Shown: positions 17,690 to 24,107 of the stretch, piece by piece
Layout: each line of letters opens with the position of its first letter
Numbering within the stretch: position 1 is the first letter of the stretch
Assembly (NCBI GenBank): GCA_016180955.1
Contig: JACPAD010000003.1
Location: 1-45,313, forward strand
Source of the DNA: Candidatus Zambryskiibacteriota bacterium
GTDB lineage: Bacteria; Patescibacteriota; Minisyncoccia; Phycocordibacterales; Zambryskibacteraceae
Reading direction: 5' to 3'
Length of the DNA stretch: 45,313 nucleotides
Notes under the pieces: model-generated
Database searches by the model: none
What the model was told of the DNA's origin: nothing
Seen by the model: only the letters and a program-made list of their open reading frames with translations
Made by a program: the position numbers and the translations under genes

Positions 17690-18882
17690 TGAAAGATAAA
17701 GAAATTCAGAAACTGATTGAAAAGGAGACAAAGAGGCAAAAAAGCGTCATAAATCTTATCGCTTCAGAGAATTATGTCTCCCAAGACGTACTCAAGGCTC
17801 TGGGTTCAGAGCTAACTAATAAATATGCCGAAGGATATTCTGCTCATCGATATTACGGTGGAAATGAGTTCTCTGACAAAGTCGAAAATCTTGCTAAAAG
17901 CCGGGCATTAAAGCTCTTTAAGCTCTCTCCAAAAAAGTGGCATGTGAATGTCCAGGCTCTTTCCGGTTCGCCGGCAAATCTTGCTGTCTATCTTGGCCTA
18001 GTTCCACTTGGCGGCACTATCATGGGGATGTCCTTGACCGATGGGGGGCATCTCACGCACGGCCATAAGGTTTCTGCCACCGGGAAATTTTGGAAAGCTA
18101 TTCAATATGGAGTGGACCCAAAGACAGAAAGAATTGATTATGAAAAGCTAAAAAAGTTAGCCAAGAAAGAGAAGCCAAACATTATTGTAGCTGGTTTCAC
18201 TGCCTATCCGCGATTAGTAGATTATAAAAAATTCAGAGAAATAGCGGATAGCGTACGCCTGCCTGCCGGCAGGCAGGGAGCCTCTCTTATGGTCGATATG
18301 TCACACACGGCAGGGCTGGTAGCTGGGGGAGTAATAGCTTCTCCATTTCCGCATGCTAACGTGGTTACCACTACTACCCACAAAACATTGCGCGGACCAA
18401 GAAGCGCATTAATATTTTCCCGTATTGATGAGCGGGAATTATACAAAAAGATTGATCGCGCCGTTTTCCCCGGGCTCCAAGGCGGGCCGCATTTAAACCA
18501 AATTGCAGCTGTTGCGGTCGCTCTCAAAGAAGCCTCAACCCCTGCTTTTAAAAAATATGCCAAGCAAGTGGTCAAAAATACAAAGGCTCTCACGGACGAA
18601 CTGAAAAGGCTCGGTTGGAGAATTGTCTCTGGTGGAACGGATACCCATCTCGCTCTTGTCGACACGTGGATGGGGGGCAAGGGGATATCTGGCAAGGAAG
18701 CGAGCGATAGGTTAGAGAAGGCTGGAATTATAGTGAATAAAAATACTATTCCTGGGGAAACTAGAAGTCCTATGGACCCATCTGGTATTCGTATTGGTAC
18801 CGCGGCGGAGACTACGCGCGGAAGCAAAGAAAGGGATATGATTAAGATTGCCCGAAAGATTGATAGAATATTGAGAGTGTGA
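17689..18882 (+). CDS. glyA: Serine hydroxymethyltransferase
   Basis: INLIASENYVSQDVLKALGSELTNKYAEGYSAHRYYGGNEF...LMVDMSHTAGLVAGG...VTTTTHKTLRGPRSALIF. Confidence 0.97.
   Translation: MKDKEIQKLIEKETKRQKSVINLIASENYVSQDVLKALGSELTNKYAEGYSAHRYYGGNEFSDKVENLAKSRALKLFKLSPKKWHVNVQALSGSPANLAVYLGLVPLGGTIMGMSLTDGGHLTHGHKVSATGKFWKAIQYGVDPKTERIDYEKLKKLAKKEKPNIIVAGFTAYPRLVDYKKFREIADSVRLPAGRQGASLMVDMSHTAGLVAGGVIASPFPHANVVTTTTHKTLRGPRSALIFSRIDERELYKKIDRAVFPGLQGGPHLNQIAAVAVALKEASTPAFKKYAKQVVKNTKALTDELKRLGWRIVSGGTDTHLALVDTWMGGKGISGKEASDRLEKAGIIVNKNTIPGETRSPMDPSGIRIGTAAETTRGSKERDMIKIARKIDRILRV
18258..18277 (+). repeat. In-frame palindrome CCTGCCTGCCGGCAGGCAGG inside glyA (encodes LPAGRQ)
   Basis: Perfect 20-bp palindrome; peptide RLPAGRQG interrupts the usual FREIAD-(x)-LMVDMSH spacing. 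Confidence 0.85.
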
Positions 18883-20435
18883 TAGCAAAAGAAATAAGGA
18901 CATTTGTCGAACGAGCACTTAAAAAGCTTGGTATTACCGAGACAGAATTTGTCGTGGAGCACCCAACCGATTTGAAAATGGGGGACTATTCTACCAATGT
19001 CGGCATCAAAACCGATAAAGCCAAGGAGATTTTCAACCACTTGGCGGTCCAACCGCCAAGTGGGGTAGAAAGAGTGGATTTAGCTGGGCCTGGGTTTATA
19101 AACTTTTATTTATCAAAAGAATTCTTTAAAGAAAATCTTAAGGAAATTATTGATGCCGGAGAAAATTTCGGGAAAAATGAAAATCTAAAGAGCCAGAAAT
19201 TCTTTATTGAACATACCCAGCCGAATCCGTTCAAGACCTTTCACATCGGGCATCTGATGAATAATACGATTGGCGAGTCAATAGCGAGAATCGTTGAAGC
19301 AAACGGGGCGGAAGTAAAGACGGCAAGTTACCACGGTGATGTAGGTATGCACGTGGCCAAGACATTGTGGAAAGGGGATTATGCCGCCGGGGCGAAGGCC
19401 TTTGAAGATGATCCGGTAGCCAAAAAAGAAATTGAGGACTTAAACAGGAAAATATATGACCGCTCTGATCCGGAAATAAATGCAAAATATGATGAAGGCC
19501 GAAAAAAGTCACTTGAGGAGTTTAAAGAAATTTACAAAAGATTGGGCACCAAATTTGATTTCAACTTTTTCGAAAGTGAGACAGCGGAGATTGGGAAAAA
19601 GATTGTGTTGGGAAATATCGGCAAAGTTTTTGAAGAAAGCGAAGGGGCAATAATATTTAAGGGAGAAAAGGCAGGGCTCCACACCAGAGTCTTTCTCAAT
19701 TCTGACAAATTACCGACTTATGAAGCGAAAGAAGTCGGTCTGGCAAAGATAAAGAAAGAAAAATTTCCTTTTGATTTATCGATGACAGTAACAGCTAATG
19801 AGCAAGATGCGTTTTTCGACGTAGTGGAGGCGGCTATAGGAGAAGTATTCCCGGAACTGAAAGGCAAACTGAAGCATCTTTCGCATGGAATGCTAAGACT
19901 TCCAACAGGAAAAATGTCGTCTAGAACAGGAGATATCATCACTGCCGAAGAATTAATTGAGGAAGTAAAAGGAAAAGTAAAAGATGATGAGCAAGTGGCT
20001 ATTGGGGCTATCAAATATATGATACTCCGGCAAGCTATCGGCAATGACATCGTCTTCGACTTTGAGAAGTCTGTTTCGACAGAAGGCGATTCTGGAGTTT
20101 ATTTACAGTATGCTCACGCTCGAGCTAATTCTATTCTTGAAAAAGCTAAAAATACGGCTAAAAACATCAACTTGGAGGTTGAGCTTCCAAGTAAAACACG
20201 GGAGGTAGAAAAACTTTTATACAGATTTCCGGAGATAGTGGAGAGAGCCGGAGCCGAATACGCGCCAAACTACATTACAACTTACCTTACTAAACTTGCT
20301 TCGGCATTTAATAATTTTTATGCGCACGAACAAATCATAGGCGATCCGTATCGTCTTGCTGTTACTCAAGCGTTCCAAATAGTGATGAAAAACGGCCTAA
20401 ATATTTTGGGAATCCCAGCTCCCGAAAGGATGTAA
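18879..20435 (+). CDS. argS: Arginyl-tRNA synthetase
   Basis: FFIEHTQPNPFKTFHIGHLMNNTIGESIARIVEANGAEVKTASYHGDVGMHVAK...LSHGMLRLPTGKMSSRTGDIITAEELIEEV. Confidence 0.96.
   Translation: MIAKEIRTFVERALKKLGITETEFVVEHPTDLKMGDYSTNVGIKTDKAKEIFNHLAVQPPSGVERVDLAGPGFINFYLSKEFFKENLKEIIDAGENFGKNENLKSQKFFIEHTQPNPFKTFHIGHLMNNTIGESIARIVEANGAEVKTASYHGDVGMHVAKTLWKGDYAAGAKAFEDDPVAKKEIEDLNRKIYDRSDPEINAKYDEGRKKSLEEFKEIYKRLGTKFDFNFFESETAEIGKKIVLGNIGKVFEESEGAIIFKGEKAGLHTRVFLNSDKLPTYEAKEVGLAKIKKEKFPFDLSMTVTANEQDAFFDVVEAAIGEVFPELKGKLKHLSHGMLRLPTGKMSSRTGDIITAEELIEEVKGKVKDDEQVAIGAIKYMILRQAIGNDIVFDFEKSVSTEGDSGVYLQYAHARANSILEKAKNTAKNINLEVELPSKTREVEKLLYRFPEIVERAGAEYAPNYITTYLTKLASAFNNFYAHEQIIGDPYRLAVTQAFQIVMKNGLNILGIPAPERM
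19039..19061 (+). repeat. Palindrome ACTTGGCGGT-CCA-ACCGCCAAGT inside argS
   Basis: Identical 23-mer occurs at 42350-42372 in an unrelated gene; encodes LAVQPPS at both sites. Confidence 0.9.
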
Positions 20436-20457: not shown

Positions 20458-23400
20458 ATGGCAGATAAATCAGAACGCGCTTTAAGAGAGGAGGAAATTC
20501 TCCAATTCTGGAAGGAAAATAAGATTTTTGAAAAAAGCTTAGAAAAGAAAGCTCCGAAAGGCGAGTTTATTTTCTACGACGGGCCGCCGTTTGCCACCGG
20601 TCTGCCGCATGCAGGCAGTCTTTTATCCTCTGTGATTAAAGACGTGATTCCTCGCTACAAAACGATGCGCGGTTACCATGTGCGTCGTAGATGGGGCTGG
20701 GATTGCCACGGCCTGCCAATCGAAAATATGATTGAGAAAGAGCTTGGCATAAAAGACAAGAAGGAGATCGAAGAAAAGATAGGAATTAAAGCTTTCAACG
20801 AAGCCTGTCGAGCGTCGGTGTTGCGCTATGTCCATGAATGGAAGCATTATATAGACCGTGTAGGCCGCTGGGTTGAGTACGACAATGCGTATAAAACGAT
20901 GGACAACTCTTACATCGAGAGTGTCTGGAATGCGCTAAAAGAGATAAATAAAAAGGGATTGTTATATGAAGGCAGAAAAGTGCTTTTGTATTGCCCTCAT
21001 TGCGAGACACCGATTGCAAAGGCTGAAATCGCAATGGACCATAGTTACAAAGACCTGACCGAAGAGTCGGTCTATGTGAAATTTCCCGCCAGAGAGGGCG
21101 GGTCCGCCAACCCGAATGGCGGAAAGAAGTACTTCCTTGCCTGGACAACAACCCCGTGGACTTTACCAGGTAACGTCGCTCTGGCTGTCGGTAGGGATAT
21201 TGATTATGTCGAAGTAGAACATGTAAAGGGAAATTATATTTTAGCAAAGGATAGACTCTCAATAATCTCTGGAGAATATAAGGTTCTTCGAGAAATGAAA
21301 GGCAGTGAGCTGGTCGGTATGGAGTATGAACCTATCTACGAAATCCCTGCCGCCAAAGAAAGCGGCAAAAAGGCTTGGTATGTAACAGATGCTGATTTCG
21401 TGACGACAGAAGAAGGTACTGGCATAGTGCATACAGCAGTATTGTACGGCGAAGACGACTACACCCTGGGTGTCGCTCTTGACTTACCTATGGCGCAGCT
21501 CCTTGATTCAGCTGGGCATTTTAACGAAAAAGCACCGGAAATTATTAGAGGACAATATTTCAAGAAAGCGGAAAAGACTATCAAAGAAGACTTGGAGAAA
21601 AGAGACTTGCTCTTCAAAAAAGAGTTGCATAACCACTCATATCCGCACTGCCACCGCTGCGGTACTGAACTTTTGTATAACGCGATTTCTTCTTGGTTTA
21701 TCAATATTCAGAAAGTGAAGGACAGAATGATAAAACTTAACGAGAAAATAAACTGGGTGCCAGAGCACCTAAAACACGGCCGCTTCTTGAATATTGTAGA
21801 GAATGCACCGGACTGGACGATATCGCGCAATCGTTACTGGGCGGCGCCTTTGCCCATCTGGAAGGATGAAAATGGCAAGATAGTTTTAGTGGGCTCTTTA
21901 GATGAACTTAAAAAGCATACTAAAAAATCAGGCAATAAATATTTCATAATGCGTCATGGTGAGGCTATTGATAATGCAAAGCATATTCTCGATCCGAAGG
22001 GTGACCCTAATAATCATCTGACGGAAAATGGGAGGGAAGAAACAATTTCCGCTTCGAAAGCACTCAAGCGGAAAAAAATCAATATGATTGCCGTCTCGCC
22101 GTTTCTGCGCACCCGAGAGACCGCTGAAGTAGTCAAACTTGAACTCGGCTTGTCAGAGGAAGCTGTTATGATCGACAATCGCTTGCATGAATTCAACGAA
22201 TCGGAACAGAAAGCTGTGCTCAAACGCATGGGCGAATTCATTTTTGACATAGAAAGTCGTTATACTCAAAAAAATATTCTCGTTATTTCCCACGGCAATC
22301 CACTATGGATGCTGGAGCAAATTGCCGCGGGGCAGTCTAGCAATGATTTCTCAGAAAGAAAGATGTTTCGTACTGCCGAAGTCCGAGAATTACCTTTCGC
22401 TCCATATCCTCACAATGACAATTTTGAACTCGACCTCCATCGCCCTTACATAGATGAAATAGAGCTTGAGAAGGACGGCAAACCTCTTAAAAGAATTCCG
22501 GAAGTGATTGATGGCTGGGTGGAGTCTGCTTCCATGCCTTTTGCCGAGTATCACTATCCATTTGAAAATAAAAAAGAGTTTGAGTCGCGCTTCCCGGGAG
22601 ATTTTGTGGCTGAATACATTGCCCAGACGCGCACTTGGTTCTACTACATGCACGCGGTAGCTGTCATTCTGTTTAATAATATCGCCTTCAAAAACGTGGT
22701 TTCCACCGGCAATGTCTTGGCTAAAGACGGCTTGAAATTGAGTAAATCCAAAGGGAATTACACTGACCCCCTGATACTCCTAGACGATATGGGGGCGGAC
22801 GCTTTCCGCTACTACCTAATGTTCTCTGTCGTGATGCGGTCCGAGGACATGCTCTTCAAAGATGAAGAAGTGAAAGAAGTTCATAACAGAGTGATAAATA
22901 TGTTATCAAACTCGTTTAATTTCTATAAGCTGTATGCTGGCGAAACTGCGGACGCCAGGCATCCACAGAATGTCTTAGATCAATGGATTATCGCGCGTCT
23001 TGATGAATTGACTCAAGAGATTACCGAAGCAATGGAAAAATATGACATGGTGCGCGCTACCCGCCCTGTTAAAGACTTTGTTTCCGATCTGTCCACTTGG
23101 TATATCAGAAGGTCCCGCGAGAGATTTAAAGTTGGAGATAAAGAAGCTCTGGCCACAGCGCGACGTGTATTTCTTGAGTTCTCAAAACTTATTGCTCCGG
23201 TAATGCCTTTTATCGCCGAAGATATTTATCAGAAAGTAAGAGAGACCAATGACCCGCCAAGCGTGCATCTCTCCTCTTGGCCGGAAGGAGAAAAGGTAGA
23301 TAAGCAAATTATTAATGATATGAATGGAGCAAGGAAGATAGTAACGCTTGCTCTTGAGGCGCGCGCGAAAGCAAATATAAAAGTCAGGCAGCCATTGCAG

Positions 23401-23712
23401 GAATTAAGATTAAAGATTCAGGATTTAGGAATGGAGTATTTAGAAATTATTAAAGACGAGTTGAATGTGAAATCTATCGTGGTTGATGAAAATCTTACGC
23501 AAGAAGTTGAGCTCGATATAACCTTAACTCCGGAACTTATCGAAGAAGGCAAAGTACGCGATGCAATACGAGCGGTGCAGGAGTGGAGGAAAGAACAAGG
23601 TCTCAATCCGCACGACAAAGCTGAGTATGAAATATCATCTGAAAAAGTAGAATTCTTTACTAAATATAAGAAGGAAATTGAACGAGCAACGAACGTGCGG
23701 ATTGTGAATTAA
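20458..23712 (+). CDS. ileS: Isoleucyl-tRNA synthetase with inserted histidine-phosphatase-like domain
   Basis: PPFATGLPHAGSLLSSVIKDVIPRYKTMRGYHVRRRWGWDCHGLPIEN...AWTTTPWTLPGN...KLSKSKGNYTDP; YFIMRHGEAIDNAK...AVSPFLRTRETAEVV...VISHGNPLWML inserted before DLHRPYIDEI. Confidence 0.96.
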   Translation: MADKSERALREEEILQFWKENKIFEKSLEKKAPKGEFIFYDGPPFATGLPHAGSLLSSVIKDVIPRYKTMRGYHVRRRWGWDCHGLPIENMIEKELGIKDKKEIEEKIGIKAFNEACRASVLRYVHEWKHYIDRVGRWVEYDNAYKTMDNSYIESVWNALKEINKKGLLYEGRKVLLYCPHCETPIAKAEIAMDHSYKDLTEESVYVKFPAREGGSANPNGGKKYFLAWTTTPWTLPGNVALAVGRDIDYVEVEHVKGNYILAKDRLSIISGEYKVLREMKGSELVGMEYEPIYEIPAAKESGKKAWYVTDADFVTTEEGTGIVHTAVLYGEDDYTLGVALDLPMAQLLDSAGHFNEKAPEIIRGQYFKKAEKTIKEDLEKRDLLFKKELHNHSYPHCHRCGTELLYNAISSWFINIQKVKDRMIKLNEKINWVPEHLKHGRFLNIVENAPDWTISRNRYWAAPLPIWKDENGKIVLVGSLDELKKHTKKSGNKYFIMRHGEAIDNAKHILDPKGDPNNHLTENGREETISASKALKRKKINMIAVSPFLRTRETAEVVKLELGLSEEAVMIDNRLHEFNESEQKAVLKRMGEFIFDIESRYTQKNILVISHGNPLWMLEQIAAGQSSNDFSERKMFRTAEVRELPFAPYPHNDNFELDLHRPYIDEIELEKDGKPLKRIPEVIDGWVESASMPFAEYHYPFENKKEFESRFPGDFVAEYIAQTRTWFYYMHAVAVILFNNIAFKNVVSTGNVLAKDGLKLSKSKGNYTDPLILLDDMGADAFRYYLMFSVVMRSEDMLFKDEEVKEVHNRVINMLSNSFNFYKLYAGETADARHPQNVLDQWIIARLDELTQEITEAMEKYDMVRATRPVKDFVSDLSTWYIRRSRERFKVGDKEALATARRVFLEFSKLIAPVMPFIAEDIYQKVRETNDPPSVHLSSWPEGEKVDKQIINDMNGARKIVTLALEARAKANIKVRQPLQELRLKIQDLGMEYLEIIKDELNVKSIVVDENLTQEVELDITLTPELIEEGKVRDAIRAVQEWRKEQGLNPHDKAEYEISSEKVEFFTKYKKEIERATNVRIVN

Positions 23713-23747: not shown

Positions 23748-24107
23748 ATGTCTCAAGCTCCAAATCCGAAATATGATCTTGAGGAAAGAACCGCCAAGTT
23801 TGGCGAAGAAATAATAAAGTTTTGCCGTTCTTTACCACACAATGAAATTACCAAGCCGGTAATAAATCAGTTGGTGAAGTGTGGCACCAGCGTCGGAGCT
23901 AATTATTGCGAAGCTGATGACGCCGAAAGTTCAAAAGACTTTAAGCATAAAATTGGCATTTGCAAGAAAGAATCCAGAGAATCCAAGCATTTCTTGCGAA
24001 TGAGTGCTATTGCTTGCCCTGAAAAAAAGGAAAACGCCAGAAAATTATGGACAGAAGCCAAAGAGCTGAACCTGATATTCAACTCAATTTACAAGAAGAT
24101 AAAATGA
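23748..24107 (+). CDS. Four-helix bundle protein (23S rRNA IVS-encoded/S23-like family)
   Basis: DLEERTAKFGEEIIKFCRSLPHNEITKPVINQLVKCGTSVGANYCEADDAESSKDFKHKIGICKKESRESKHFLRM. Confidence 0.9.
   Translation: MSQAPNPKYDLEERTAKFGEEIIKFCRSLPHNEITKPVINQLVKCGTSVGANYCEADDAESSKDFKHKIGICKKESRESKHFLRMSAIACPEKKENARKLWTEAKELNLIFNSIYKKIK

Follow-up and report, generated by a model that had tools for sequence, protein, structure and literature searches.

A histidine-phosphatase domain inserted into isoleucyl-tRNA synthetase of Patescibacteria and exchanged between synthetase bodies

Extra domains of aminoacyl-tRNA synthetases (aaRSs) are usually regarded as stable, lineage-specific additions. Appended domains described in AARS Online include GST, WHEP and others, and the word 'phosphatase' is absent from the main text of that paper (PMC11580382). 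The NCBIfam model ileS_w_GNAT (NF040702) likewise defines an isoleucyl-tRNA synthetase (IleRS) bearing an extra enzyme domain, but this is an acetyltransferase (GNAT) and not a histidine phosphatase (HP). Enzymes of the HP superfamily are mostly phosphomonoesterases. In titles and abstracts of the open-licence PMC literature we found neither a description of an HP domain in IleRS or valyl-tRNA synthetase (ValRS) nor a paper on GNAT in IleRS. Here we analysed a stretch of 45,313 nucleotides, called the window below, from a Candidatus Zambryskiibacteriota bacterium (contig JACPAD010000003.1 of assembly GCA_016180955.1). Its IleRS has gained an extra domain as have the aaRSs of AARS Online, and that domain is an HP.

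The ileS gene lies on the forward strand at positions 20458–23712, directly downstream of argS (18879–20435, forward strand), and its translation is a stop-free open reading frame of 1084 aa. The protein scored 816.2 bits against the curated ileS model TIGR00392 (NCBIfam; cut-off 621.4), and it was the only match above the cut-off in its own genome assembly (488 kb, 84.9% complete). A Pfam scan found tRNA-synt_1 in two stretches (3.7×10−121), His_Phos_1 and, at residues 841–981, the anticodon-binding domain Anticodon_1. The CP1 editing domain (approximately residues 196–397; 21043–21648) was located by its match to the solved editing domain 1wk8, and the KMSKS motif is present as KLSKS (residues 760–764; 22735–22749), in agreement with a preliminary description in which the synthetase was said to continue in frame beyond the insert. 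The HIGH-motif position (residues 51–54; 20608–20619) reads HAGS and fits neither HxGH nor the G/AxHH variant, the fourth residue, normally His, being Ser. The same HAGS occurs in four relatives (L004, L005, L011 and L012), and HYGS in a fifth (L013). Despite HAGS, we take the protein to be a working IleRS because it is the only one encoded in the assembly. The full-length model had a pLDDT of 87.3 and a pTM of 0.79. Catalytic, editing and anticodon domains are common to the window protein and the solved IleRSs (8c8v, 1ile and 7d5c), from which it differs by HAGS and by approximately 166 extra residues that constitute the HP domain. Curated scores for the mupirocin-resistant IleRSs MupA and MupB (683.6 and 677.4 bits) stayed below the cut-off of 1900, as did that for ileS_w_GNAT (300.7 bits; cut-off 1999), and the Pfam scan revealed no GNAT domain. 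Between ileS and recO, a small protein of the 23S rRNA-intervening-sequence type is encoded at 23748–24107.

The solved structure 8c8v aligns with window residues 9–488 and again from residue 656 onwards. Because it has just five residues of its own (479–483) between these stretches, we place the insert, which is absent from solved IleRSs, at approximately residues 490–655 (21925–22422), close to the boundaries given in the preliminary description (an insert of ~160 aa at ~21930–22420 between GSLDEL and DLHRPY). GSLDEL starts at residue 479, followed by RHG (499), SPFLRT (547), RLHEF (575) and SHG (611), and the IleRS body resumes with DLHRPY at residue 659 (22432–22449). Secondary structure, pLDDT and the Pfam match PF00300 delimit the folded HP domain at approximately residues 494–645 (21937–22392). 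The PF00300 (His_Phos_1) match was 3.6×10−19 with 69.6 bits (cut-off 21.7), which assigns the domain to branch 1, and the insert was the only HP match in its own genome. Both the domain search and the structure prediction that had been proposed as checks thus turned out in favour of a phosphatase: the model of the insert (33 aligned sequences) has a complete phosphatase fold with a mean pLDDT of 92.5 and a pTM of 0.89. Foldseek matches fell into the HP superfamily, with RosC (2.7×10−10), a riboflavin-pathway HP (9.3×10−10) and PspA (1.6×10−9) among them. After realignment to solved folds, PspA (4ij6) had a Z score of 19.1 (2.0 Å over 154 residues), followed by GpgP (4qih; 18.5), the riboflavin-pathway HP (9mmh; 18.3), PhoE (1h2e; 18.2) and SixA (16.5). 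Judged from the model, the closest folds are those of small-molecule phosphatases, a likeness that by itself shows no substrate.

The histidine-phosphatase pattern RHG...R...SHG seen earlier was recovered and extended by an acid. The catalytic set consists of R499 and H500 (21952–21957), R551 (22108–22110), E578 (22189–22191) and H612, the second His (22291–22293). H500 is presumably the phosphate-accepting His, and we likewise carry over the roles of the other residues from the HP superfamily. All five residues were invariant across 25 aligned IleRSs. In the wider alignment of 107 inserts at the same site, where column conservation averaged 0.46, the first R, the H and the second R were invariant, the acid was E in 104 and D in three, and the second His was aligned in 106; the exception (L109) has SHA in its sequence, which was lost in the alignment. 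The fold (Z 17.9–19.1) and the RHG...R...E...H set are shared with PspA, PhoE, GpgP, the riboflavin-pathway HP and CobC, whereas the window HP is embedded in an aaRS and its stretch from E578 to H612 is shortened. There, approximately 40 residues are missing from the window copy, which is a short form with 145–158 residues in the profile match compared with 187–204 in other HPs. No curated HP equivalog of NCBIfam reached its cut-off with the window protein (SixA 36 of 74.5, CobC 28.9 of 162.9 and PspA 28.6 of 350 bits).

We then surveyed how widely the insert occurs between the GSLDEL loop and DLHRPYID (site A). Among 30 loci fetched from relatives, the insert region was completely readable in 29, each of which had an insert starting with RHG or RHA; the thirtieth (L025) ends inside the HP domain. 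A profile search detected the site-A insert in 95 of the 142 genomes sampled from the class, a count that rests on profile span and frame length of genomes that were not fetched and that comprises 90 full-span matches, three at contig ends (G123, G195 and G159), one split match (G196) and the split match of the window itself. Since 47 of the 142 genomes showed none, the insert is not indispensable. In a second draw of 145 genomes from the phylum, it was present in nine of nine genomes of the same class and in 12 of 136 others, and one genome (G243) had an HP at another site. Groups named among the matches listed were Paceibacterota, Nomura-, Zambryski-, Wolfe-, Yanofsky-, Jorgensen-, Giovannoni-, Sungi-, Peregrini- and Peribacteria, and some were labelled 'bacterium' only. 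With the IleRS-HP profile (E ≤ 1×10−25), two samples from outside Patescibacteria gave no fused gene: 201 genomes from the same phylum as an Anaerolineaceae genome, and 199 from that of a Clostridium genome, the single match in the latter sample being a free HP of 210 aa. Rare cases may exist elsewhere. A record titled Spirochaetia (L115 of genome G342, ~400 kb) contains an HP-IleRS of the Patescibacteria kind and is probably mislabelled.

The recurrence of one architecture in 95 of 142 class genomes rules out chance, an artificial fusion or an assembly error, the latter two also being countered by its presence in genomes of two to seven contigs (G014, G017 and G011). That fold and catalytic residues are conserved across the class argues, as far as sequence and model can tell, for a real second catalytic activity. 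The preliminary proposal of a second enzymatic activity, for example hydrolysis of a phosphorylated metabolite or signal, is thus supported in part. A defence-gene or viral origin of the cassette was dropped, as there was no PADLOC match and none of five pattern matches in viral contigs was confirmed.

The HP domain also exists as a separate gene. In five loci (L091, L092, L094, L095 and L098), an HP gene of 183–209 codons lies on the same strand between argS and an insertless ileS, with abutting or overlapping open frames, and two more loci (L093 and L100) have the order argS-HP-ileS with gaps. ArgRS was confirmed by Pfam in all seven, as well as in L109, where it precedes the inserted form. 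In the HP tree, the free HPs are scattered among the inserted ones, requiring at least four changes on starred branches, and the tree would fit insertion or excision alike.

Moreover, HP domains occur in ValRS and at further sites of IleRS. We found ValRS-HP fusions in L101, L102, L103 (which has lost the second His) and L104, and a tandem HP pair in L106; a Val_tRNA-synt_C match confirmed L104 and L106 as ValRS. A search of 286 genomes of the phylum added L257, L260, L267 and L268, giving nine ValRS cases in total. IleRSs of Peregrini- and Peribacteria (L107, L108, L138, L141 and L142) have a second HP after DLHK, at a short stretch that precedes RIPEV in other IleRSs. In another IleRS (L105, 3138–7490), the HP precedes the anticodon domain (IleC site) and is accompanied by a GNAT acetyltransferase domain. 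The HPs of the second site form one group in the HP tree (SH-aLRT 88), apart from the site-A HPs, and the ValRS HPs require two or more changes on starred branches. We read these placements as several independent recruitments, on a quick tree with long branches. The tree omits 15 repeated, partial or broken loci (L001, L002, L025, L078, L080–L084, L117, L132, L136, L144, L207 and L209; among them, L082 repeats L105, L083 repeats L103 and L084 repeats L104), and four identical rows were merged. Like the HP tree, the 20-row body tree below is a quick tree, the 100-row host tree was built with FastTree, and none has bootstrap values. At another locus (L208, 1488–3143), a 2-hydroxyacid dehydrogenase is fused to a C-terminal HP domain, possibly as a serine-pathway fusion. 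The coupling to Ile-tRNA synthesis postulated in the preliminary description gains support from insertions that recur in IleRS and ValRS and from the argS-HP-ileS gene order, both read from sequence.

Within the family of the window, the IleRS bodies fall into three clades with a support of 100 each (20-row body tree), all of them in one genus (g1, G000–G016), which suggests frequent replacement of ileS itself. HP similarity does not follow these clades. For example, the window protein and L011 are 82, 46 and 75% identical in N-terminal body, HP and C-terminal body, respectively, and the window protein and L006 are 53, 71 and 52% identical; the values are 85, 48 and 89% for L006 and L021, and 50, 67 and 52% for L021 and L027 (231 of 253 pairs of 23 loci were compared). 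Identity shifts at approximately residues 471–498 and 653–665. Over the 190 pairs of 20 loci (L015, L017 and L030 were left out here and in the AU tests), five body segments correlated with one another at 0.70–0.96 and HP with all of them at −0.07 to 0.06, and the flanks of the insert, 130 residues on either side, correlated with each other at 0.96. AU tests on the HP data rejected each body clade (p 1.2×10−43, 1.3×10−6 and 2.4×10−6), and the body data rejected the short-HP clade (p 2.1×10−30). Decoupling was weaker in 33 other loci of the class (N-C 0.73, N-HP 0.33 and C-HP 0.47). Within the genus (13 genomes), neither part followed RpoB (Mantel p 0.17 for HP, 0.32 or 0.24 for the body), and identities were 84–94% for RpoB versus 34–71% for HP; over all 16 genomes, HP did follow RpoB (r 0.50, p 0.0025, Mantel). 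On the grounds of segment correlations, AU tests and RpoB comparison, IleRS body and HP cassette both appear to move, independently of each other. Neutral recombination in the conserved flanks could be the source of this exchange.

We think it probable that an essential IleRS here carries an exchangeable, complete HP cassette of the PhoE/PspA/CobC kind that would act in cis, as an active phosphohydrolase, on a small compound linked to isoleucine or valine aminoacylation. This explanation builds on what was observed: the sequence, the predicted fold, the catalytic residues and their conservation, the recurrence of the insertion in both IleRS and ValRS, the free-gene form and body-to-body exchange. 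From these we infer the phosphohydrolase activity, its action in cis and the class of compound. H500 would take the phosphate of the substrate, R499, R551 and H612 would hold it, E578 would serve as the acid, and water would then free the phosphate from H500. Candidate substrates are small phosphorylated or nucleotidyl compounds that arise from isoleucine/valine aminoacylation or disturb it. The best-supported claim, from sequence and model, is that of a putatively competent phosphohydrolase acting in cis. Weighing against the explanation are the 47 class genomes lacking the insert, the ValRS copy of L103 with its lost second His, the HP equivalogs that all stay below their cut-offs, the possibly neutral nature of the exchange and the weaker decoupling in other loci of the class.

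A narrower form of this explanation, detoxification or self-immunity, is possible and in our view rather unlikely. The cassette would destroy a natural IleRS/ValRS inhibitor that contains phosphate, phosphoramidate or nucleotide, and its exchange would reflect an arms race. This would suit the turnover of both cassette and IleRS body within one genus, in which the HIGH motif also differs between bodies (HAGS/HYGS, HYGH and A/GxHH). The G/AxHH-type bodies recall IleRS2, where this motif is described to give mupirocin hyper-resistance (PMC10485003). GNAT and HP occur jointly in the IleRS of L105, and a precedent for detoxification is the AspRS-inhibiting nucleotide microcin C, to which a GNAT domain and a phosphoramidase are each described to confer immunity (PMC7157772). 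However, we saw no link between HP and the mupirocin-resistance motif: G/AxHH was present in 54 of 116 HP and 28 of 72 non-HP rows (188 rows, 16 unread, the non-HP set mixing Patescibacteria with other phyla). Moreover, there was no PADLOC match, and phosphomonoesterases prevail in the HP superfamily. We know of no inhibitor of IleRS or ValRS with such chemistry. It is a doubtful but conceivable scenario that in Patescibacteria the rapidly turned-over cassette in IleRS and, several times over, in ValRS acts as a local safeguard of the synthetase against an inhibitor of phosphorylated or nucleotidyl nature, which hosts or competitors might produce.

It is less likely still that HP is a structural or passenger insertion, with a surface loop tolerating HP domains that serve folding, assembly or nothing and whose catalysis is unused. 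The loop at site A does tolerate insertions, because IleRSs of family f103 (L200, L202 and L203) have a different, non-HP insert of ~110–130 residues there (that of L200 without a Pfam match), and several body lineages have no insert at all. On the other hand, conservation is much higher at the catalytic residues than elsewhere in the domain, and the same HP clade also occurs as a free gene beside ileS.

We consider it very improbable that the HP removes phosphate from the acceptor end of tRNA before charging, a 3'-end repair that would suit IleRS and ValRS alike and place the domain sensibly inside a tRNA-binding enzyme. The closest folds are small-molecule phosphatases, the HP at the IleC site is found ahead of the anticodon domain, and, as a weaker point, the net charge averages 0.2 over 107 site-A domains (−1 in the window), whereas an RNA-acting domain is expected to be basic. 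Moonlighting as the phosphoglycerate mutase of the cell, for which the best NCBIfam HP equivalog (the archaeal-type dPGM_arch, 46.5 bits) and the lack of an iPGM match in the own genome could be cited, was rejected on gene content with hardly any residual credence: the dPGM cut-off of 225 was not reached, enolase had no match in the 84.9%-complete genome and was present in just 19 of 61 relatives, iPGM exceeded its cut-off in eight of 61 genomes, all eight with enolase, and the insert was present in 29 of 29 readable loci of relatives despite the scarcity of enolase.

An aaRS with an extra domain is of a known kind; unusual here is that an enzyme is embedded, repeatedly recruited and exchanged. 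New are the occurrence of HPs from other lineages in ValRS, as a tandem pair and at two more positions of IleRS, the free gene between argS and ileS, and, in the family of the window, exchange independent of the body. The preliminary description did not extend to the exchange of the cassette, the separate gene, the fusions to ValRS and the ~40-residue shortening. In much of a bacterial class, a complete enzyme domain sits amid an essential synthetase. In this bacterium with a tiny genome, the apparently working phosphatase and its exchange among relatives point to a second role of the translation machinery that has gone unrecognised. Putative phosphate chemistry linked to aminoacylation becomes directly testable with one recombinant protein. 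If the protective reading were true, resistance would evolve by swapping the cassette and not the synthetase. The system also opens a way to study selection in organisms of which hardly any are in culture.
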